Positions 543-43,209 of a stretch of DNA of 64,000 bases are shown in pieces; position 1 is the stretch's first letter, and every line of letters begins with the position of its first letter. The position numbers and the translations under genes were made by a program. The notes under the pieces were generated by a model. That model saw only the letters and a program-made list of their open reading frames with translations. It was not told where the DNA came from and made no database searches. The DNA is from Bacteroidota bacterium. Lineage in GTDB: Bacteria; Bacteroidota; Bacteroidia; Flavobacteriales; Weeksellaceae. The DNA is taken from the NCBI GenBank assembly GCA_018266955.1, contig JAFDZI010000022.1, positions 62,001-126,000 on the forward strand. Reading direction: 5' to 3'.

Positions 543-1469
543 TTAGTTTGATTTTGGCAAGAAAACCTCTGCAAGCATACAACGAGCCGAGCCTCCTCCA
601 TTCACTTCTATGGTATGCAAATCCGAATAGATTATTTCTGAATAATTTTCTATTTTTTGTATTTGGTCATTCGTTAATGACTGATATGCTGTTTGGCTCA
701 TGATAAGAAAAGTTTGCCCATCTTCATTGTTGAGTTGCAACATATTTCCGGCAAAATTTTGCATTTGAGTTTCGCTTATTTCTACAATTTCTTTCCCGGA
801 ATTCACCAAAGTAGTTTTCACCATATTTCTTTCAGCCTCATCATCAATGCAATCCAAACAGATGACAGCAAAACGATCGGCAACACACATCATAACATTG
901 GTATGATAAATGGGCAGTCTTTCTTTCCCTGCACTTTGAAAACTATGAAAAACCACCGGTTGGTAGCCAATTTTTTTACAAAAACTTCGGAATAAACCCT
1001 CGTCCAAACGCAAGGATACAGATCCGTATGCAATTTTATTTTCATGATCGAAAATCATAGAACCGGTACCCTCTAAAAATAAATTTTCTTTTTCTGAAGC
1101 TGATAAATCGACAATTTCATCAATGACAAAACCTTCGTTTTTCACAGCTTCTAGGATATCCATTCTTCTTTCATCTCTACGATTGGGTGCAAACATGGGG
1201 TAAAGGAATACTTTACCGTCACTCCCGAAACTCACCCAATTGTTTGGAAAAATAGAATCTGGGGTGTGGGGCTCTAGGGTGTCCTTTATGGTTATTACGA
1301 CAATTCCTTTGGCTTTTAATTTTTCAACAAAAGAATGAAACTCTTGCAAGGCTTTCTTTTGAGTTTCTTCCCCTTCTTGGTTAACTTGGAAATAATTATT
1401 CTCGGCCGTTTGCGCATTGTATCCAAAAGCAATAGGCTCTATCATCAGGACAGTTTGGGTTGTTTGCAT
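543..1469 (-). CDS. ctlX: CtlX-type arginine/citrulline-related hydrolase
   Basis: This 308-residue protein belongs to the amidinotransferase/deiminase fold group of citrulline- or arginine-related hydrolases (CtlX type). Visible motifs are FPNNW at 74-78, EGTGS at 133-137, a His in HTN at 189 and a C-terminal Cys in GGGSARC at 297. These match the Asp/Glu-His-Cys active-site layout of the family. The start at 1469 is preferred over an upstream ATG at 1574 because the upstream frame runs through a terminator (1503-1533). A -7-like TATTTTTG (1499-1492) follows that terminator directly. There is no signal peptide, so a cytosolic enzyme of amino-acid catabolism is expected. The exact substrate is not certain. 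Confidence 0.8.
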   Translation of the reverse strand: MQTTQTVLMIEPIAFGYNAQTAENNYFQVNQEGEETQKKALQEFHSFVEKLKAKGIVVITIKDTLEPHTPDSIFPNNWVSFGSDGKVFLYPMFAPNRRDERRMDILEAVKNEGFVIDEIVDLSASEKENLFLEGTGSMIFDHENKIAYGSVSLRLDEGLFRSFCKKIGYQPVVFHSFQSAGKERLPIYHTNVMMCVADRFAVICLDCIDDEAERNMVKTTLVNSGKEIVEISETQMQNFAGNMLQLNNEDGQTFLIMSQTAYQSLTNDQIQKIENYSEIIYSDLHTIEVNGGGSARCMLAEVFLPKSN

Positions 1470-1502
1470 GGTATTTTCAAAAATTAAATCACAAAAATAA
1501 AG

Positions 1503-1533
1503 AAAAAAAACTCCACTAGAGCAGTGGAGTTTT
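1503..1533 (-). terminator. terminator downstream of the small lipoprotein gene
   Basis: An 11-bp perfect stem (1507-1517 with 1523-1533) with a 5-base loop, followed on the minus strand by a run of T. It separates the lipoprotein gene from ctlX and supports the downstream ctlX start. Confidence 0.8.
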
Positions 1534-1600
1534 GAATCGTATGTTTCAGCTGAAAAGTTGGGATTTTTTATCAAAAATAAAACTAAATTTTTAGCTATTT

Positions 1601-1972
1601 TTAATTATCCCAAGCCAGTGGAATAACATTTCCATTTTGTTCAACTATCAGAGAATCACCTTTGGCAACGGCTTTTATCCCTGCTCTTTCGTATTGTACT
1701 TCGCCCTTAGATTCGGACTTTTTATCCAGTTGAAATCGATTATTATTCGCCTGAATGGTTACGGTATTGGCTTTTTCGGTATTTTCGAAAATCACCTTAG
1801 CTCTTACTCCTTCTAATCCTCGATAAGTATAGGTGTTGGCTCCTGGAATTAAAGCCTTTTCCATATTTTCCGTTGTTGGTTGATCTTGTTTCAACACTCC
1901 TTTGTTGCCTTCTTCTTTGGTGCAAGAAGCCAAACCAATCATTACCAATAAGGCAAAAGCAAATTTTTTCAT
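1601..1972 (-). CDS. small lipoprotein of unknown function
   Basis: A 123-residue protein with a lipoprotein signal peptide: a hydrophobic stretch from residue 3, then L-A-S-C with the lipidated Cys at position 17. The acidic, Lys-rich start of the mature part (C-T-K-E-E) is usual for exported Bacteroidota lipoproteins. The remaining part is polar with regular beta-strand-like alternation. I do not recognise a named domain. It is a single-gene unit closed by the terminator at 1503-1533. Confidence 0.7.
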   Translation of the reverse strand: MKKFAFALLVMIGLASCTKEEGNKGVLKQDQPTTENMEKALIPGANTYTYRGLEGVRAKVIFENTEKANTVTIQANNNRFQLDKKSESKGEVQYERAGIKAVAKGDSLIVEQNGNVIPLAWDN

Positions 1973-2012
1973 AATATTTTGAATTTAATGTTTTTTTTAT
2001 TGTGATGATGTA

Positions 2013-22155: not shown

Positions 22156-22250
22156 TTAGATGTTAGATGTTAGATGTTAGATGTTAGATCAATTTTAAAT
22201 CAGTTCTTGTAACGGAAGTTCTAATTTCTAATTTCTCGGTTCTAACTTCT
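22156..22250. repeat. heptad tandem/inverted repeat between rpsC and rplP
   Basis: Four exact tandem copies of TGTTAGA (22161-22188) and a partial one on the left; on the right (about 22218-22252) TTCTAAT, TTCTAAT, TTCTCGG, TTCTAAC, TTCTGAT. GTTAGA is the complement of TCTAAC, so the two arrays can pair as a seven-base-periodic stem around a central segment of about 30 bases. Confidence 0.8.
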
Positions 22251-28203: not shown

Positions 28204-28737
28204 CTATGAGTTTTCAATTATAATATAATGATTATTACCAATGCTACCTGAGACAAAGAACCAATTAGCCCGAATTATGCCATCATCATGATACGAAGTT
28301 TGCACACCACAAAGATTTAAACCAGAACCAATAGCACCACCTGCACCACTAATTTGAATATTAGTACCTGCTTGATACATGGTAAATCTGGTATAAGACC
28401 ATTGATTGACTGTTGGGTTTCCATATACAGTATTTAATATTGGATCTACAGATGAATAAATTTGAAAGGGGGCACCAGCGTTTGGACTTACAAACCAACT
28501 ATTAATATCAGAATCTGTACTTGAGAAACTACTAAAGTATTTCGTTGAATTTGATTCTACTACAAGGTTACCACTATTATTAGAAATCGAATTTGGATAA
28601 CAATTGCTACCTGAGGGTTCTTGAGTTGCTAACAAACCATGATAATCATAATCAGAGTAATTATAGATATATAAATTTCCTTGAGAATAATTTTTTATAC
28701 TTATAAAAATAAGAAACAGAAATGCTAAATTTTTCAT
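28204..28737 (-). CDS. secreted protein of unknown function (paralogue A)
   Basis: A 177-residue exported protein with a signal peptide ending near S-Q-G at residues 18-20. The mature part starts G-N-L-Y-I-Y-N-Y-S-D-Y-D and ends with W-F-x-x-x-x-x-I-G-N-N-H-Y-I-I-I. It shares this opening, the mid-protein W-S-x-x-R/K-F and the end with the neighbour at 28748-29275, so the two are diverged paralogues. It has two Cys (the N-C-Y-P and L-C-G-V segments) in positions matched by the neighbour, suggesting a disulfide. I do not recognise the family. Confidence 0.65.
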   Translation of the reverse strand: MKNLAFLFLIFISIKNYSQGNLYIYNYSDYDYHGLLATQEPSGSNCYPNSISNNSGNLVVESNSTKYFSSFSSTDSDINSWFVSPNAGAPFQIYSSVDPILNTVYGNPTVNQWSYTRFTMYQAGTNIQISGAGGAIGSGLNLCGVQTSYHDDGIIRANWFFVSGSIGNNHYIIIENS

Positions 28738-28747
28738 AGTATATTGT

Positions 28748-29275
28748 TTATTGAATTATAAAATACCAATCATTCCCAATAGAAAACCAGTTAACTTCTA
28801 CAGGAAAACCTGAACCAGGAGGACCTCCTACATAGTCTGTAAACGAAGAATTTACTCCACAACCACCATAACCAATGGTAAATCCACCATTTGGTTGATT
28901 TACATTAAACTTTGCACCAGACCATTGTGTATTACTTGCTAATGGACCTGTAGCATTAAATATTGGCGAACTAGCCACAGAATATGCAGGCGAAGGAGGT
29001 GTAGTAGTAAATCTATAATACCATCCATTTATTGGAAAAGAATTTGCTTGGCTATTAGAGTATCCATTATATGCTTCGGACTGACCAGCAGGTATGGTTA
29101 AAAGACCAGCACTTTCAACATGTGGAAAACAATTATTATTGGTGTTATTTTGGTTTGTGCCAAAAATTGTAATATCTGCACTATATGCCGAATTATTAAA
29201 GATATAAAGTGTACCGATTTGAGCACTGATTACTCCTGCACAAAATATTGCTAAGAAAACAACTAAATTTTTCAT
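28748..29275 (-). CDS. secreted protein of unknown function (paralogue B)
   Basis: A 175-residue protein with a signal peptide (V-V-F-L-A-I-F-C-A-G-V-I-S-A-Q). The mature part begins G-T-L-Y-I-F-N-N-S-A-Y and ends N-W-F-S-I-G-N-D-W-Y-F-I-I, parallel to paralogue A. It shares the N-C-F-P and G-C-G-V Cys positions. ATG 29275 is chosen since it directly precedes the signal peptide and lies just after the preceding stop (29277); an ATG four codons upstream is possible. Family not recognised. Confidence 0.65.
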   Translation of the reverse strand: MKNLVVFLAIFCAGVISAQIGTLYIFNNSAYSADITIFGTNQNNTNNNCFPHVESAGLLTIPAGQSEAYNGYSNSQANSFPINGWYYRFTTTPPSPAYSVASSPIFNATGPLASNTQWSGAKFNVNQPNGGFTIGYGGCGVNSSFTDYVGGPPGSGFPVEVNWFSIGNDWYFIIQ

Positions 29276-29276
29276 A

Positions 29277-29513
29277 TTAATTTTCATTTTTAATGGTTTT
29301 ATTTATTCGTGTTATTTTCTCAAAATACAATTTAGTTGCTTTTGAAATTATCATTTCTTTGGCTTCTCGTGTAGTATTATCAGCATCAATTCTTCCTACT
29401 TCTACAGCTAAGAATCGCTTTGATGCATTATACAAAATATCCAAACTGCGTTCATTAAGTTGTCCACCCGTTTTTCTCTGCCCATCAGGAGTCGATCTAT
29501 TCTCAGGCTTCAT
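29277..29513 (-). CDS. small helical protein of unknown function
   Basis: A 78-residue hydrophilic protein without signal peptide. The first 20 residues are polar (P-E-N-R-S-T-P-D-G-Q-R-K-T-G); the rest is predicted helical with regularly spaced Lys/Arg. It begins one base past the stop of the small lipoprotein gene and ends at the start of paralogue B, so all appear to be one transcript. No family recognised. Confidence 0.5.
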   Translation of the reverse strand: MKPENRSTPDGQRKTGGQLNERSLDILYNASKRFLAVEVGRIDADNTTREAKEMIISKATKLYFEKITRINKTIKNEN

Positions 29514-30735: not shown

Positions 30736-31017
30736 TTATGTAAAAAAAATCAGCACACAATTACAAATATTAATCAAGAGTAAAATAATTCCATATTTTC
30801 TTTTTTGAACCATTGCTATTATAGAATAAATCATTAATAAAAAGGGTAGAATTAAAACTGTAATAAAATTAAAATTTGCAAGAAATGTAATTGCTTGCAT
30901 TAATGCATCTGCAATTTCATTTCCTAATTTATTTTGATAGAAATAATACGCTTGCAAAATAATATTAATAAGAACTAGCAAACTTACTACTATGATAATT
31001 TTATGAAACTTTTCCAT
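30736..31017 (-). CDS. small membrane protein (93 aa)
   Basis: A 93-residue protein with three hydrophobic segments (about residues 7-25, 41-68 and 74-92) and a short charged loop (V-Q-K-R-K-Y-G) before the third. It starts 11 bases after the stop of the Cys-rich lipoprotein gene, so the two are probably co-transcribed. Its 3' end adjoins the rpsJ fragment. No family recognised; it could be an accessory or immunity-type protein, but nothing proves this. Confidence 0.5.
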   Translation of the reverse strand: MEKFHKIIIVVSLLVLINIILQAYYFYQNKLGNEIADALMQAITFLANFNFITVLILPFLLMIYSIIAMVQKRKYGIILLLINICNCVLIFFT

Positions 31018-31028
31018 TATTAATCAAT

Positions 31029-32024
31029 TTAAATGATATTAGTTATTATCTTAACTGGTTTTCCTAGACCGGGTTTACAGCCAGGTCCGCAATACCAGGA
31101 TGGAAGTCCTTTAGGCGGTATACAAGAAGCACATTGAACATCATGAACATAACACGCTAAAGAAGAATAAACACAACATCCTGAATAATTTCCACAGCAA
31201 CCCGTATCTGATCCACATCCAATAAAACACCAACTGGAACACCCCATAGGTTGGTATTGAACATTTTCAATAAAGTTTTCAAATTCTGCCGCACTACCAT
31301 AAAATTCATTTATTACAGTAAATGGTACTTTAGACATACTATTACTTTTAATAAATTCTTTCAAATTTTCATCTTTAGTGCTATGAATATAATTATTAAG
31401 TGTGCTCAAATCAACTAAACTTAAGTCAATGAACTGATCCTCTTGAAACACAAAAAAATCTTTGCCTGCTAAAAAACCAGGGTGTAGGGTTCCATTTAAA
31501 GGACTATTTGAATTTTCTGCTCTCACTAGGGCATCAATACTTGATTGATAATAATATATAGATGAAAATAAATCAACATTTTTTCCTCCATCAACAACAG
31601 ACTTTTGATATATCGCCAGAACATACCCATCAATAAATTCGGACAAATCTCTTAAAACTCCAATATCAATATTTTTTTCTCGCAAATTGTCTGCTAATGC
31701 AAGAACTCTTTCTTTTTGCTTAATTTTCCAATGGGTTTCAGAAGTGTCAAAAGTATAATCTAATTCAAAAAGTTTTGCACTATCATTAACAACAGACAAA
31801 ACCTCTACTATACTTTTAAATTCACTTCCATCAATATCAGAATAAAGCCTCAAAACAAATTGTTCGTCGCTTACTTCGTAATTCAAAGCATTTTCAGACT
31901 GATTACTCATCGTTCTATACATCGAAATTTCGTTTGGAATACCATCTGAAATTTCTTCTACAGAATTAGTACTACAATTTATAAATAGTAGCACCAATGA
32001 AAAATACAAAACAAACTTTTTCAT
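31029..32024 (-). CDS. lipoprotein with a Cys-rich C-terminal domain
   Basis: A 331-residue lipoprotein: signal with lipobox I-N-C (Cys at 17), a mostly helical middle part, and about 55 residues near the C-terminus (about 260-318) with 12 Cys in the pattern G-C-S-S-W-C, G-C-G, G-C-C, G-C-C, C, C-A-S-C, Y-C-G-P-G-C. This suggests a disulfide-locked, bacteriocin-like or toxin-like module. The leader upstream has six copies of the TTTTAG hexamer, as in the GLPGLI modules at 39-43 kb. It lies on the inserted segment next to rpsJ. Function unknown. Confidence 0.6.
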   Translation of the reverse strand: MKKFVLYFSLVLLFINCSTNSVEEISDGIPNEISMYRTMSNQSENALNYEVSDEQFVLRLYSDIDGSEFKSIVEVLSVVNDSAKLFELDYTFDTSETHWKIKQKERVLALADNLREKNIDIGVLRDLSEFIDGYVLAIYQKSVVDGGKNVDLFSSIYYYQSSIDALVRAENSNSPLNGTLHPGFLAGKDFFVFQEDQFIDLSLVDLSTLNNYIHSTKDENLKEFIKSNSMSKVPFTVINEFYGSAAEFENFIENVQYQPMGCSSWCFIGCGSDTGCCGNYSGCCVYSSLACYVHDVQCASCIPPKGLPSWYCGPGCKPGLGKPVKIITNII

Positions 32025-32048
32025 ATTCGATTTTTTTTAATTAGTGCT

Positions 32049-32087
32049 ACTAAAACTAAAACTAAAACTAAAACTAAAACTAAAACT
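32049..32087 (-). repeat. hexanucleotide repeat (6 copies) in the lipoprotein leader
   Basis: ACTAAA is repeated six times plus ACT on the plus strand, i.e. TTTTAG-type on the coding strand, 25 bases before the lipoprotein start. The same repeat occurs with 4, 4 and 2 copies in the leaders at 39829, 41054 and 43111. Confidence 0.95.
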
Positions 32088-32142
32088 GTGCAAGTTTTTG
32101 TGTGAAAAACAATTGAATTTAACAGAATTTAACACTTTTATG

Positions 32143-38639: not shown

Positions 38640-38668
38640 TAAAATCCCCAAACTTTATGGGTTTGGGA
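38640..38668 (-). terminator. terminator of GLPGLI module 3
   Basis: CCCAAAC/GTTTGGG stem around 38646-38667 with T-rich tail on the minus strand. The same hairpin type ends modules 2 and 1 (39910-39941, 41135-41168), showing the modules were duplicated with their terminators. Confidence 0.7.
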
Positions 38669-38674
38669 ATAATG

Positions 38675-39511
38675 TTATTCTAACTCCAATGGAGCATAAA
38701 GATTCTTATTAATGGGTATAGAGATTATTTTTCCTGTATCATCATACGCTTTTCCTGACATGAAAATACCGGGATTTTCAAAATAATTTCTTTGAATTTT
38801 CCTGAAATTTTCCCTACTTACTGTTTCTATACCGCTTTCGTTTCTCCAGTAAATATCCATTTTCTTTTTTACGATACCCACAGCTGTAAAATCATACTGA
38901 CCATGTTCATCGGTTATTTTCAAAATTAACCCTGGTAAACCTTGGAAAATGTACGGTCCATCGTTTTTTGGAATTTCCTCGGTGTACCATGCTTTATATT
39001 TTCTTCCTCTAAAAGTAAGAGTTGCAGATTTACAGAGATAACCCAGTAGATATTTTTTTTCATTCGTTAAAACCCAATGTTGTACAGGCATCGCTTCTGA
39101 ATACTGATAAACAGTCTTAGATATTCGTTCTTGGCAAAAAAGAATATTGGAAACAAAGTCTTTAAGAATATTTTTTTTATAATGGATATTGTATCTCCCT
39201 AAGTCGTTCAATTCTTTTGCACCAACCGATTCTAATAGGCTATGTGCTTTGATAAGTGAATCTCTACTCATAGCATTAATATCCGAAAATTTGGAATACT
39301 TATCGCCTAACTGCAATATCGTTTTCAACTCTAACTTTTTATCTTTACCATCAGTAAAAGTTAAATTATACTGAACCACCAAATTGGATTGGTCTTTTAC
39401 TTCTTGACTATATTTTGGTGCCACAAATCGCTTATCAACTTCGATCTGTTGGGCATAAGAAAAAGAAATTAAAAACAGAATCAATAAAAAAAGAAATTTT
39501 TTCATCATCAT
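38675..39511 (-). CDS. GLPGLI family exported protein (module 3)
   Basis: A 278-residue protein with signal peptide (F-L-F-L-L-I-L-F-L-I-S-F-S-Y-A-Q). It has the family motif G-L-P-G-L-I followed by L-K-I, and Y-K-A-W-Y-T-E-E-I-P before it. GLPGLI proteins are periplasmic or envelope proteins of Bacteroidota with unknown function. The start is one of three consecutive ATGs (39511, 39508, 39505), directly after the stop of the broken peptide gene. A frame upstream to 39616 exists but crosses that gene. Confidence 0.8.
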   Translation of the reverse strand: MMMKKFLFLLILFLISFSYAQQIEVDKRFVAPKYSQEVKDQSNLVVQYNLTFTDGKDKKLELKTILQLGDKYSKFSDINAMSRDSLIKAHSLLESVGAKELNDLGRYNIHYKKNILKDFVSNILFCQERISKTVYQYSEAMPVQHWVLTNEKKYLLGYLCKSATLTFRGRKYKAWYTEEIPKNDGPYIFQGLPGLILKITDEHGQYDFTAVGIVKKKMDIYWRNESGIETVSRENFRKIQRNYFENPGIFMSGKAYDDTGKIISIPINKNLYAPLELE

Positions 39512-39512
39512 A

Positions 39513-39794
39513 TTAATATGGCACTTCGAATCCTTCACCTTTACCGCATTGTGCATCGGTAAATTTCCTTGCATCTTCCTGTAGGCATTCATAACAATCT
39601 GTGTAATCACTTCCATTCAAATAAAAAACTTTACCACAACTTGTAGTTACTTTTACCCAATCATACACAATAGGAAATTTTATAAAATTGAGTACTGAAT
39701 TCTGTGGTTATAAATCTAGTAATTTTTTATCACTGGTTTTCCCACTTACCATACCTGCCACCACCAATGCGGCTACGAACATTAATTTTTTCAT
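39513..39794 (-). pseudogene. small secreted peptide gene of module 3, broken by an in-frame stop
   Basis: The frame opens with the same signal peptide as its two paralogues (M-K-K-L-M-F-V-A-A-L-V-V-A-G-M-V-S-G). After 28 codons there is a TAA (39710-39708). The same frame then continues with good coding character for 64 residues containing four Cys (T-S-C-G-K, T-D-C-Y-E-C-L, A-Q-C-G-K) to a stop at 39515-39513. The total of 93 residues equals the intact paralogue in module 1. It is a pseudogene, a truncated 28-residue product, or a sequencing error. Confidence 0.75.
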
Positions 39795-39828
39795 TGTGTT
39801 ATTTTTTTAAATTGTTTAACACAACGAA

Positions 39829-39855
39829 ACTAAAACTAAAACTAAAACTAAAACT
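39829..39855 (-). repeat. hexanucleotide repeat (4 copies) in module 3 leader
   Basis: Four copies of ACTAAA plus ACT (coding strand TTTTAG type), 35 bases before the peptide start. The flanking leader is almost identical to that of module 2. Confidence 0.95.
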
Positions 39856-39909
39856 ATGCAAATTTTTCTTTAAAAAAATAAGAAAAGTACAGTATTTTAG
39901 AATGATTAT

Positions 39910-39941
39910 AAACAAAATCCCCAAACTTTGAGGGTTTGGGA
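39910..39941 (-). terminator. terminator of GLPGLI module 2
   Basis: Stem between about 39918-39926 and 39933-39941 (CCCAAAC/GTTTGGG with one bulged C), near-identical to the terminators at 38640-38668 and 41135-41168. Confidence 0.7.
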
Positions 39942-39949
39942 ATAAAAAA

Positions 39950-40765
39950 TCATTCGAGTTCGATGGGGTTGTTGTTTCTACGATATCTTCTTTCTAAATT
40001 CTTTGTAGCCTCTGGATCGAGAAAAACTCCATCAGCATTCATTATAGAAATAATATTTTCATTAAAATGGTTTAACGCCTGAACAAACTTCAATTTTGTA
40101 GTTTCAGTGGATACGAGTGATGACTCTTTAATTTTCAGCATCTCGCCCGCTTTTGCCATACGGTAGTTTTCCAACTGAAAAACAAAATACTTTTTTTCGT
40201 CTTGCAACTTGACAATCAAACCAGGGAGTCCACCAAATTTGTAGGGCCCTTCTTGTATCGGAATAGAATGAGCAAACCAAGCCGTCCATTTTCTACCACC
40301 AAAATTTAGAGAGGCTTGGGTGCAAGGTATATTATTAACCATTTCCTTTTGGTTAGAAATTGCCCAATTTAAGTTTAAATTCTCAAGAAAGGAAAATTTA
40401 TTTTTTTGAATTACATCAATGTATTTTATCTTTATAAATTCCGAATTTCTACTTTTTATAATGGTGTAGCTATAATTAGATTTAGGCATTCCCATTAAAT
40501 TAATTGATGTGATGGGTTTCTGTAATTGTTGAGAAATAATAGAATCTCGTTCAAATGAGCCTTCGCTGTAATAAACAGAGGTATTATTTTTTCCTACATC
40601 CAATACAAATCTCTCTGCATCAGAAGATTTGTAGTCTATAGAATCAGATTGAGTTTGTACCCAATATCGAATTTTATACTGCAAAGGTTCGATTTCTTTG
40701 TACTGCCCATGACAATAAAAACAACCCAACATAAAAACGCAAACATAAAAAAGTATTGGTTTCAT
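39950..40765 (-). CDS. GLPGLI family exported protein (module 2)
   Basis: A 271-residue exported protein (signal peptide about 1-20). The motif G-G-L-P-G-L-I-V-K-L lies in the middle, after W-T-A-W-F-A-H-S-I-P and G-P-Y-K-F. It follows the peptide gene of its module by 7 bases. It ends N-N-P-I-E-L-E, like other members of the array. Function unknown. Confidence 0.82.
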   Translation of the reverse strand: MKPILFYVCVFMLGCFYCHGQYKEIEPLQYKIRYWVQTQSDSIDYKSSDAERFVLDVGKNNTSVYYSEGSFERDSIISQQLQKPITSINLMGMPKSNYSYTIIKSRNSEFIKIKYIDVIQKNKFSFLENLNLNWAISNQKEMVNNIPCTQASLNFGGRKWTAWFAHSIPIQEGPYKFGGLPGLIVKLQDEKKYFVFQLENYRMAKAGEMLKIKESSLVSTETTKLKFVQALNHFNENIISIMNADGVFLDPEATKNLERRYRRNNNPIELE

Positions 40766-40772
40766 TTCACAA

Positions 40773-41018
40773 TTAATTCATTTCAAAACTTTTATTTTTT
40801 GGACAGATTAGATTATCCCACCACAAAAGTTTATTTCCGATTTCCTCAGTATCTTTTCCACAAACAATTCCTTTTTCTCCACATGAGAAAGTTACAGAGA
40901 CGCAAGCCGATACTATTTTTTTACTTTGTTTGGCTATTTTGTTCTCTTTAATAATTCCAGACTTCCCACTTACCATACCTGCCACCACCAAGGCGGCTAG
41001 GAACATTAATTTTTTCAT
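40773..41018 (-). CDS. small secreted Cys-containing peptide (module 2)
   Basis: An 81-residue product with a signal peptide (M-K-K-L-M-F-L-A-A-L-V-V-A-G-M-V-S-G, cleaved about residue 18-20) and a mature part with Cys in S-A-C-V, F-S-C-G-E, V-C-G-K and L-I-C-P. Paralogues lie at 42793-43074 and, broken, at 39513-39794; only the leader peptide is well conserved while mature parts differ. Partner of the following GLPGLI gene. Function unknown. Confidence 0.65.
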   Translation of the reverse strand: MKKLMFLAALVVAGMVSGKSGIIKENKIAKQSKKIVSACVSVTFSCGEKGIVCGKDTEEIGNKLLWWDNLICPKNKSFEMN

Positions 41019-41053
41019 TGTGTTATTTTTTTTAAATTGTTTAACACAACGAA

Positions 41054-41080
41054 ACTAAAACTAAAACTAAAACTAAAACT
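41054..41080 (-). repeat. hexanucleotide repeat (4 copies) in module 2 leader
   Basis: Four copies of ACTAAA plus ACT, placed 36 bases before the peptide start. The coding strand reads TTTTAG repeats just downstream of a -7-like AAAATTTG. Confidence 0.95.
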
Positions 41081-41134
41081 ATGCAAATTTTTCTTTAAAA
41101 AAATAAGAAAAGCACAGTATTTTAGAATGATTAT

Positions 41135-41168
41135 AAACAAAATCCCCAAACTTTATGAGTTTGGGGAT
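41135..41168 (-). terminator. terminator of GLPGLI module 1
   Basis: Perfect 11-bp stem (41142-41152 with 41158-41168), loop TTATG, T-rich tail on the minus strand. Confidence 0.8.
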
Positions 41169-41212
41169 AGTTTAAGAATTTGTTAACCGAAAAGTATTTA
41201 GAAGAACCAACA

Positions 41213-42028
41213 TTATTTGAGCCAAACTTTATCCATTTCTATTGGATTGTTATGGTCTTTCATCCATTTCCAGTAAATTTTATTTAGGCTATCAAAATAA
41301 TTTTTATCTGTTTTGAATTCTTTACCATCGAAACTTGATTTAGATTTGTATGAACTGTTTAACATTAAATTCCTACTATTAAAGGAGGGGTCTTTTACTA
41401 TCTGATTTTGAAGTTTTTTAAATTTATTTTCATCAACAGAAATAGAATTAGGCAAATTTACTATAGAATTAGTTGTTGTCTTCTTTATTTCCATCACTTT
41501 AAAATGATAATCTCCATCTGCTGATATTATCTCTAAAATTAAACCTGGGAGTCCAAAAAATTTATACGGTCCATCGTTTATAGGGATTTTTGTAGTAAAC
41601 CAAGCAGTCCATTTTCTATTTCCAAAATCAATGGTCGCCTTTTGACATAGATAATCCAAAATAATCTTTGATTCTTGTTGTAATTGCCAATTATGAGAAG
41701 GAAAAGTAAATCTATGTTGATAGTATTCTTCGTCTATAGAGGATAACTGGGTATATTGGGATGGTTTGAAATTTTTTAAAATAATATCATGAAAATGAGT
41801 TTCATTTTGCTTTCTAAAATTTTCTAAAAAATCTTTCCCTCTGGAAGCGATATTTACATCAAGGTAAATAGAGCTTTCTGTAACAACATTGTAAGACAAA
41901 ATTGCTTGGTCGATTGATTTTTGTTCTTTCTCCTTGTTGTGTTTTCCTATTATCTCATAGGTAATTTCATATCCTTGCGCTTGTACTACATAAGTTAGAA
42001 AGCAGAAAATAAATACTATTTTTCCCAT
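41213..42028 (-). CDS. GLPGLI family exported protein (module 1, second copy)
   Basis: A 271-residue exported protein (signal peptide about 1-17, V-Q-A-Q). G-L-P-G-L-I-L-E-I sits after W-T-A-W-F-T-T-K-I-P. It overlaps the end of the preceding GLPGLI gene by 13 bases, so translation is probably coupled. Near its C-terminus it has N-N-P-I-E-M-D, close to the ends of other members. Function unknown. Confidence 0.82.
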   Translation of the reverse strand: MGKIVFIFCFLTYVVQAQGYEITYEIIGKHNKEKEQKSIDQAILSYNVVTESSIYLDVNIASRGKDFLENFRKQNETHFHDIILKNFKPSQYTQLSSIDEEYYQHRFTFPSHNWQLQQESKIILDYLCQKATIDFGNRKWTAWFTTKIPINDGPYKFFGLPGLILEIISADGDYHFKVMEIKKTTTNSIVNLPNSISVDENKFKKLQNQIVKDPSFNSRNLMLNSSYKSKSSFDGKEFKTDKNYFDSLNKIYWKWMKDHNNPIEMDKVWLK

Positions 42029-42762
42029 TCAAACAGTATTTCCAATCCATTTCTTTCTTGCTTCATTGCTAAAAACTCTCCGAATTCATTAGGATTAAAC
42101 ACGATACCATATTTTAAATCGGGATAACTCCGAAACGCCTGCATATCGCTTTTTGAAACTTTTACAAAAGGATTTATTGGGGTTGCAGTACCAAGGTTTT
42201 CAATGGACTTTAACTTCCAAGAAAACTGTTTATTTTCATCGTACATTTCATATACCAAGCCTTCTATTCCGTTAAATTTCCAAGGTGCTAATGACAACGC
42301 AACTTTTTCATCATACCATGCAATATAGGTTCTGCCTCTAAACTTTGTTGTAGCTTTGGATAAAACTTTTTGGTTTACTTCTTTGGTTTCGGACTCAATT
42401 TCCCATTTCATGGGTTTTACATCATCAAAAAAAATATAATTATTCCCTCTAATATTGTCCCAAATATACATTTCAGGAGTAGATTTTGAATAAATAATAT
42501 AGTTAGATTTCACATTACTTTTATATGTAGAAAGAATGTTTTCCTTTGGATTAATGGCTTTTAAATTAGCATCCGATATACCATACCTAACTGTGTATAA
42601 TTTCTCTAACGACTGATTATTATAAATTACTTCAGCAGGAAAATTATACACAGTATTGGTATCATATCTGTAAACATTAAAATCATAAGTAACTTTAATA
42701 GTCTGAGCAGTAAAAAAACTTTGGAGAAAAACCCCAAATAAAGAGGCTAAATAAATTCGCAT
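42016..42762 (-). CDS. GLPGLI-like exported protein (module 1, first copy)
   Basis: A 248-residue exported protein with a signal peptide (about 1-19). Its key motif is altered: F-N-G-I-E-G-L-V instead of G-L-P-G-L-I. The surrounding pattern (Y-I-A-W-Y-D-E-K-V, A-P-W-K-F) fits the family. It follows the peptide gene at 42793 by 30 bases. The divergence in the defining motif may mean a changed partner. Confidence 0.72.
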   Translation of the reverse strand: MRIYLASLFGVFLQSFFTAQTIKVTYDFNVYRYDTNTVYNFPAEVIYNNQSLEKLYTVRYGISDANLKAINPKENILSTYKSNVKSNYIIYSKSTPEMYIWDNIRGNNYIFFDDVKPMKWEIESETKEVNQKVLSKATTKFRGRTYIAWYDEKVALSLAPWKFNGIEGLVYEMYDENKQFSWKLKSIENLGTATPINPFVKVSKSDMQAFRSYPDLKYGIVFNPNEFGEFLAMKQERNGLEILFEWEK

Positions 42763-42792
42763 ACCATTTTTTCTGTAAAACTATTATTTTTT

Positions 42793-43074
42793 TTACAATT
42801 GGTTATCAAATGCATATTTCACTTTTTGTTTATTCAATTTTACACAATCTTCTTTTGATTCCATAGGAACATCCTCGGAAAGCACCAAAGTAAAAGTACC
42901 ATCATGATTATCCCTATAAATCCTAATATAACAAATTCCCGAAAGCACTTTGGAATTTGTAAAATAATTAGTTGAAGTTTCAGAATTTAATTCAATCAAA
43001 TCTACCTTCTTCAACGAATTGGCACTTACCATACCTGCCACCACCAAGGCGGCTAGGAACATTAATTTTTTCAT
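42793..43074 (-). CDS. small secreted peptide (module 1)
   Basis: A 93-residue product beginning with the signal peptide shared with modules 2 and 3. The mature part has two Cys (G-I-C-Y and K-E-D-C-V) and is otherwise unlike its paralogues. The start at 43074 matches the paralogues; an upstream in-frame ATG at 43131 lies within the repeat leader. First gene of the three-gene module 1. Confidence 0.65.
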   Translation of the reverse strand: MKKLMFLAALVVAGMVSANSLKKVDLIELNSETSTNYFTNSKVLSGICYIRIYRDNHDGTFTLVLSEDVPMESKEDCVKLNKQKVKYAFDNQL

Positions 43075-43110
43075 TGTGTTATTTTTTTTTAAATTGTTTA
43101 ACACAACGAA

Positions 43111-43125
43111 ACTAAAACTAAAACT
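43111..43125 (-). repeat. hexanucleotide repeat (2 copies) in module 1 leader
   Basis: Two copies of ACTAAA plus ACT, against four in the otherwise near-identical leaders of modules 2 and 3, and six in the leader at 32049. Copy number varies between loci. Confidence 0.9.
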
Positions 43126-43180
43126 ATGCAAATTTTTCTTTAAAAAAATAAGAAAAAAAGCTATTTTAGAATGATGATAA

Positions 43181-43209
43181 ACAAAAACCGAACGATTACT
43201 CGTTCGGTT
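43181..43209 (-). terminator. terminator of typA
   Basis: Perfect 10-bp stem (43186-43195 with 43200-43209), loop TTAC, T run on the minus strand. Confidence 0.85.

Follow-up and report, generated by a model that had tools for sequence, protein, structure and literature searches.

Results

Organization of the peptide/GLPGLI modules

The window analysed here is a stretch of 64,000 nucleotides from a Weeksellaceae bacterium of the phylum Bacteroidota (GenBank assembly GCA_018266955.1, contig JAFDZI010000022.1, positions 62,001 to 126,000 of the forward strand) and is part of a 2.45-Mb draft genome (G000, contig C14). Three consecutive modules, A, B and C, are located on the minus strand at 38644-43186. 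In each of them a leader with a promoter element is followed by a gene for a small signal-peptide protein, one or two genes of the GLPGLI family and a terminator. The determined features, in window positions, were:

43109..43132, minus strand: promoter element of module A, TTTGCA(TAGTTT)3, from the repeat search
43075..43186, minus strand: leader of module A, 75-95% identical to the other leaders (head from -90 to +57, 88-90% identical)
42793..43074, minus strand: peptide A, open reading frame of 93 amino acids, Sec signal peptide and a mature part with 2 cysteines
42016..42762, minus strand: GLPGLI A1, 248 amino acids, cognate of the type A peptide, TIGR01200 97.9 bits
41213..42028, minus strand: GLPGLI A2, 271 amino acids, second GLPGLI of the type A module, TIGR01200 151.9 bits
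41142..41168, minus strand: terminator of module A, from the hairpin search
41052..41087, minus strand: promoter element of module B, TTTGCA(TAGTTT)5, from the repeat search
41019..41141, minus strand: leader of module B, from the leader comparison
40773..41018, minus strand: peptide B, open reading frame of 81 amino acids, Sec signal peptide and a modelled beta-beta-alpha core with an SCG motif and 4 cysteines
39950..40765, minus strand: GLPGLI B, 271 amino acids, TIGR01200 143.5 bits
39917..39943, minus strand: terminator of module B, from the hairpin search
39827..39862, minus strand: promoter element of module C, TTTGCA(TAGTTT)5, from the repeat search
39795..39916, minus strand: leader of module C, 98% identical to leader B
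39513..39794, minus strand: peptide C, type 'WITV-SCG-YxL', with an in-frame TAA at 39708-39710 in the open reading frame
38675..39511, minus strand: GLPGLI C, 278 amino acids, open, TIGR01200 176.4 bits, AlphaFold model available
38644..38670, minus strand: terminator of module C, from the hairpin search

The leaders and signal peptides of the three modules were 85-98% identical at the DNA level. The heads, taken from -90 to +57 of the peptide gene, shared 88-97% identity, and the four GLPGLI proteins were 21-33% identical in pairwise comparison. The exact sequence ATGAAAAAATTAATGTTC starts at 43074, 41018 and 39794 on the minus strand; with up to 3 mismatches it was found 5 times in the window versus 0.7 times expected from shuffles. 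Terminator-like sites were also in excess in the region (8 versus 1.8 expected), and the three module terminators are near-identical CCCAAAC/GTTTGGG hairpins. These coordinates and identities confirm the arrangement proposed in the initial annotation of the stretch, namely three modules with a near-identical leader, a shared signal peptide with differing mature parts, one or two GLPGLI genes and a terminator.

The initial annotation had also given each module a peptide gene, with often Cys-rich mature parts. The peptide genes of modules A and B are intact, but that of module C is interrupted by the TAA after 28 codons. The reading frame resumes behind the stop and continues to 39513, which indicates a nonsense allele, and the adjacent GLPGLI C gene is open. 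With only 2 to 4 cysteines each, the mature parts are Cys-containing and not Cys-rich. The promoter repeat, the interchangeable bacteriocin leader and the outer-membrane protein described below were likewise absent from the initial annotation.

The GLPGLI proteins were called with a TIGR01200 cut-off of 50 bits; all four proteins of the window scored above it (97.9-176.4 bits) and belong to the family (TIGR01200, PF09697 Porph_ging). The Sec peptides A and B matched no family in Pfam or NCBIfam, and the scan of the leaders against Rfam gave no known RNA. The sigma-70 promoter scan resulted in matches at shuffle level, as expected for the phylum Bacteroidota.

Co-inheritance of the peptide and its GLPGLI protein

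To compare pairs between genomes, the similarity of the mature peptides was correlated with that of the GLPGLI proteins in 66 pairs, including a few broken peptides which were read through or joined by eye. The Mantel r was 0.566. Shuffling the peptides within each genome gave a mean r of 0.119 and a maximum of 0.338 in 2000 shuffles. In 26 of the 66 pairs the best cross-genome GLPGLI match also had the best-matching peptide, with about 1 expected by chance. The peptide and its GLPGLI protein are thus a co-inherited pair, and the covariation that the initial annotation had proposed as a check of its matched peptides and GLPGLI proteins was found.

In the tree of 148 GLPGLI proteins, which was calculated with FastTree and has many open forks, the clades match the peptide types across genera. 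Type A modules have two GLPGLI genes each, and the first and second proteins form separate clades across genomes. GLPGLI A1 falls into a clade with the partners of three further type A peptides and a single GLPGLI that has no peptide; the clade of A2 contains the second GLPGLIs of type A modules from two other genomes.

The identity of the heads was 85-97% between unlike modules of one array, and at most 73% between modules of the same type in different genomes. This indicates that the head is homogenised locally while the mature part travels with the GLPGLI gene: promoter, leader and signal peptide are exchanged or converted among neighbouring modules.

Between close species, both genes are under purifying selection. 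A disrupted peptide beside an open GLPGLI gene was detected in eight cases (window module C, L092, L095, L140, L165, L316, L318 and L324), and the reverse case, a broken GLPGLI beside an open peptide, was not seen.

Frequency of the pairing among GLPGLI genes

The window genome has 16 GLPGLI genes, and of the 12 outside the window modules at least 4 (L004, L010, L012, L015) are also located behind a small secreted-peptide gene. Nine family genomes were tested automatically for a signal-peptide gene of 35-170 amino acids directly before the gene in question, with a positive result for 38 of 146 GLPGLI genes. Among the controls, 6 of 185 other genes were positive (p 1e-9), as were 3 of 50 genes with a signal peptide (p 0.002). 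After curation by hand the pairs numbered about 50 among 148 GLPGLI genes, and five of their peptides were broken; 80 of the 148 were orphan GLPGLI genes. The pairing is therefore a property of a GLPGLI subset and does not mark the whole family. According to the initial annotation, a lack of upstream peptide genes before most GLPGLI genes of relatives would speak against its proposal. Literally this is the case, as most GLPGLI genes have no peptide; nevertheless, the enrichment over the controls leaves the pairing unrefuted, and it holds for the subset.

Tandem arrays with cloned heads were found elsewhere, with three modules in L104 and two each in L097, L123 and L157. Paired peptides with the SCG core were detected in Chryseobacterium, Empedobacter, Porphyromonas loveana, Prevotella, Arcicella and other Bacteroidales, and one such Bacteroidales locus (L264) has three tandem copies. 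GLPGLI itself was present in 54 of 60 sampled family genomes, often in 10-28 copies. The two-gene peptide/GLPGLI cassette is spread across Bacteroidota.

Several further loci were recorded. GLPGLI/peptide modules adjoin the rpsL-rpsG-fusA-rpsJ operon in several genera (L341, L348, L349, L350 and the window at 32-43 kb), and this neighbourhood may be a conserved insertion site. In seven loci of Prevotellaceae and relatives (L251, L262, L266, L272, L281, L286, L295) a small secreted protein resembling the TonB C-terminal domain is directly before GLPGLI; these were treated as a different gene and left out of the 66 pairs. In L154, the GLPGLI gene at 1178-2011 (minus strand) is closely preceded by the gene for a secreted peptide of 63 amino acids with a very Thr/Ser-rich mature part. 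A tblastn match in the window's own genome (L050) was rejected as a peptide, being antisense to a long gene (open reading frame of 592 amino acids).

Peptide-first search and exchange of leaders

An alignment of type C peptides was searched against 246 family genomes and matched in 84 of them, in many cases to the signal peptide only. Each of the 30 best loci had an open GLPGLI gene directly downstream of the peptide. Together with the co-inheritance across genera, this strongly supports the claim that each peptide is matched to its own GLPGLI protein.

Six of the 30 loci (L319, L321, L323, L324, L329, L330) had a double-glycine leader in place of the Sec signal on the same mature domain, and the mature domain of module C is common to L319, L321, L323, L329 and L330. 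In the scan with NF047798, 'bacteriocin-like protein', four of the six gave scores of 33.7 and 33.3 bits, above the cut-off of 23.5, and 23.3 in two cases, just below it. Peptides A and B of the window bear the Sec signal and showed no double-glycine leader match in NCBIfam. The two leader types are interchangeable on the same mature peptide domain.

In some Bacteroidales loci, a Cys peptide assigned to the TIGR04149 precursors of ribosomally synthesized and post-translationally modified peptides (RiPPs) is directly before GLPGLI. A radical S-adenosylmethionine (SAM) maturase (TIGR04148), a TIGR04150 protein and/or an ATP-binding cassette (ABC) exporter are alongside in varying combination in L232, L269 and L296. 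In the reciprocal search TIGR04148 was above the cut-off in 0 of 395 sampled genomes, and there was no match in the window genome. The double-glycine and RiPP contexts tie GLPGLI to exported peptides regardless of the export route.

Predicted fold of GLPGLI and of the peptide

The AlphaFold model of GLPGLI C, the one protein modelled, was built with 60 homologs and had a pLDDT (predicted local distance difference test) of 91.4. The best solved match was the N-terminal domain of PNGase F-II with Z 16-16.6 (PDB 4r4z, 4r4x, 7zgn), followed by LolA, LolB, VioE and RseB with Z of about 8-11. The LolA/LolB/RseB match (Z of about 8-10) covers residues 42-235 at 6-12% identity and includes LolA and LolB of Porphyromonas gingivalis. 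The PF22252 profile of the PNGase F-II N-domain was above the Pfam cut-off for two window proteins, and the sequence search of the PDB with GLPGLI gave one chance match only. According to the model, GLPGLI is predicted to have a LolA-like half-barrel fold. The concave face of the half-barrel is a binding site for lipids, small molecules or peptides in other families. A cofactor or metal site was not detected in GLPGLI. In comparison with PNGase F-II, whose N-domain fold they share, GLPGLI proteins are free-standing and have no glycosidase domain. They would have the same half-barrel as the LolA, LolB and RseB carriers, a likeness by fold model only, and differ as expanded paralogs paired with peptides.

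The peptide was modelled as beta-beta-alpha with moderate confidence (pLDDT 72.5, about 87 in the core). As none of the Foldseek candidates matched in the PDB over Z 2.7, no fold is claimed for the peptide.

An outer-membrane protein linked to GLPGLI

About 45 of 80 loci across Bacteroidota, five of which had seeded the model, contain an outer-membrane protein of roughly 880 amino acids in the vicinity of GLPGLI. This protein has a signal peptide, an N-terminal CarboxypepD_reg domain and a weak Plug match. CarbopepD_reg_2 scored 41.2 bits in L270, above the cut-off, and below it in the others; Plug scored 17.0 bits in L291, below the cut-off. The beta-barrel (L231, L270, L228, L287, L291 and about 40 more loci) was matched by no Pfam or NCBIfam model. 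Among the 60 family genomes, 49 of the 54 that contain GLPGLI also have the protein, versus 1 of the 6 that lack GLPGLI (Fisher p 3e-4). The protein is frequently located behind the modules, and it is directly beside peptide/GLPGLI modules in L010, L100, L104, L123, L167, L183 and L192. From its domain layout it is probably a TonB-receptor-like protein of the Oar type. One Oar-type TonB-dependent transporter is needed for the secretion of the PopC protein in Myxococcus (PMC6434023); the N-terminal CarboxypepD_reg, the weak Plug and the size of about 880 amino acids would be in common with this type, and the barrel that matches no model would be a difference.

Repeats in the promoter element

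The promoter pattern of Bacteroidota is TTTG plus TAnnTTTG. In the window leaders, TTTGCA is followed by (TAGTTT)n with n = 3, 5 and 5, and the ATG is about 31 nucleotides further. TTTGCA(TARTTT)n also precedes peptide genes in two other genomes of the same genus and in another genus, with n = 2-5 and TAATTT variants. Where the start was readable, the element was about 21-34 nucleotides before the ATG, and n varied among paralogs and species. Three perfect TAGTTT units occur at four places in the window genome and at five in G011, a genome of the same genus; the reversed control pattern was not found. With at least 4 units, a TAnnTTT box lies about 20 nucleotides past TTTG. The variable repeat number at the promoter position suggests that expression of the modules may be phase variable. 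The literature search on repeat-driven phase variation in Bacteroidetes found nothing.

A fourth copy of the element was located in the window before a different secreted gene:

32049..32090, minus strand: fourth copy of the element, TTGCACAG(TTTTAG)6, from the repeat search
31029..32024, minus strand: lipoprotein-like open reading frame of 331 amino acids with a Cys-rich C-terminus, behind the fourth element, no Pfam or NCBIfam match
30736..31017, minus strand: hydrophobic open reading frame of 93 amino acids directly after the former, no Pfam or NCBIfam family

This stretch (30736-32090, minus strand) sits directly after rpsJ. Amniculibacterium aquaticum (L097) has a near-identical copy of it, with two peptide modules following just downstream.

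Discussion

The co-inheritance and the peptide-first loci demonstrate a pairing, from which we infer a function for the two genes. Each module may be a cassette that combines a bacteriocin-like peptide, small and exported, with a cognate partner in the periplasm. The peptide would leave the producer and act on related cells, and its way across the outer membrane would probably be the TonB-receptor-like protein associated with GLPGLI. In the periplasm, the secreted GLPGLI protein would capture its own peptide in the half-barrel and thus confer immunity, and orphan GLPGLI genes would protect against the peptides of others. The TAGTTT repeats could switch the modules on and off, the box at a suitable distance being placed by four or more units. 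That the peptide is an effector or ligand, as suggested in the initial annotation, is plausible, and its activity would be antibacterial or signalling.

We regard a bacteriocin-like effector with a periplasmic immunity or binding partner as the most likely of the readings, if slightly short of an even chance. The cognate pairing, the 30 peptide-first loci, the bacteriocin leader, the RiPP loci, the broken peptides beside open GLPGLI genes, the common orphans, the fold, the co-occurrence with the outer-membrane protein and the purifying selection were all counted for immunity. Bacteriocin or polymorphic-toxin cassettes with immunity genes are alike in the shared export head, the variable mature part, the cognate downstream partner, the orphan partners and the tandem arrays, a likeness based on the genes; they differ in that the partner here is predicted to have a LolA-like fold. 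The double-glycine peptides of Chryseobacterium (NF047798 leader_Chryseo; L319/L332, L321/L333, L323/L334, L329/L336, L330/L337 and L338) have the same mature domain and a GLPGLI neighbour, whereas the window peptides bear a Sec signal peptide. The radical SAM RiPP clusters of Bacteroidales (TIGR04148/04149/04150) resemble the window in the Cys peptide directly before GLPGLI; in contrast, the window genome has no such radical SAM protein and the mature peptide differs.

Several observations weigh against immunity. The peptide core is conserved and not fast-evolving between close species. Conserved orthologs are frequent among the orphan GLPGLIs, some of them adjacent to the outer-membrane protein, and these look housekeeping-like. 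Immunity needs no outer-membrane receptor, and a LolA fold is not known to us from any immunity protein. Changes in repeat number were seen only among paralogs and species and none within one population or strain. Finally, four orthologous loci of one genus with weaker matches (L339, L340, L342, L343) have a double-glycine type C peptide and no adjacent GLPGLI. This disproves the notion that the peptide never occurs without GLPGLI, and the link, considering the 30 of 30 loci, is very strong but not absolute. In two of these four loci other double-glycine peptide genes are alongside.

Another explanation is re-uptake. In that case the peptide would be a scavenger or signal exported by Sec or ABC routes and re-imported by the outer-membrane protein, GLPGLI being the peptide-specific periplasmic receiver; orphan GLPGLIs would pirate the peptides of others, as with siderophores. 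The cognate pairing is in line with this, as are the co-occurrence of GLPGLI and the outer-membrane protein, including the loci where they are direct neighbours (L104, L123, L167, L100, L183, L192, L010), and the ligand binding of LolA-like half-barrels. Prevotellaceae loci such as L251, L262 and L266 have the small secreted TonB-C-terminal-like proteins, a domain call made by eye, beside GLPGLI and the outer-membrane protein. However, genomes of the genus have 1-3 outer-membrane proteins versus about 6-17 peptides, so that specificity would rest on GLPGLI alone, unlike in siderophore systems. The lack of a detected cofactor or metal site also counts against re-uptake, which moreover leaves the bacteriocin leader unexplained, and we consider it rather unlikely. 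Alternatively, GLPGLI could be a LolA-like periplasmic chaperone. It would receive the peptide after Sec export and pass it to the outer-membrane protein, which would release it or display it on the surface, much as the secretion of PopC in Myxococcus depends on Oar. The LolA/LolB fold would suit such a carrier, the outer-membrane protein has the CarboxypepD_reg of Oar-type receptors (PMC6434023) and Sec-type peptides must cross the outer membrane. But double-glycine peptides have GLPGLI as a partner just as Sec peptides do, and their class of leader points to an ABC exporter; orphan GLPGLIs are common, and GLPGLI is open where the peptide is broken. The latter is less in line with a dedicated export carrier, which appears improbable, than with a partner that is useful after peptide loss, as immunity protein or as receptor for foreign peptides. 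It is extremely improbable that the pairing has no function and resulted from tandem duplication of a GLPGLI neighbourhood holding a small secreted gene by chance. Most GLPGLI genes indeed have no peptide, but the co-inheritance across genera exceeded the within-genome shuffles, and both the peptide-first loci and the enrichment over other genes contradict a chance neighbourhood.

A wider proposal can be made with more reserve. Throughout the phylum, GLPGLI proteins might be periplasmic partners with a LolA fold, each specific for one small exported peptide and all working through a common TonB-receptor-like outer-membrane protein; such a system of peptide antagonism or traffic, with swappable Sec and double-glycine leaders, would be unlike the described bacteriocin/immunity pairs. 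We hold this as conceivable but doubtful. Both GLPGLI, as a family, and the bacteriocin-like leader class are established names. In the part of the open literature covered, GLPGLI appears only in regulon lists with no mention of a peptide partner, and no paper linking it to the bacteriocin-like leader class was found among the open-access texts seen, subscription papers being outside the search. GLPGLI is widespread in Bacteroidota without an assigned function, and the pairing offers a testable role as the dedicated partner of a peptide. The exported peptides, with two leader types labelled bacteriocin-like or RiPP by NCBI, the predicted LolA-like fold and the linked outer-membrane protein provide a concrete hypothesis for this orphan family. 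They also suggest that a large number of bacteriocin-like peptides bear Sec leaders and lack annotation, as leader-based genome-mining tools would miss them.

Other features of the window

A perfect heptamer repeat, TTAGATG in four units, is located at 22156-22183 and is the only other perfect array of 5-9-nucleotide units (at least 3 units) in the window. Two adjacent secreted proteins of 177-179 amino acids are encoded at 28204-28737 and 28748-29287 on the minus strand, with mature parts starting with G(T/N)LYI(F/Y)N. This pair (28204-29287) precedes a secreted protein of 615 amino acids with a C-terminal sorting-like domain.

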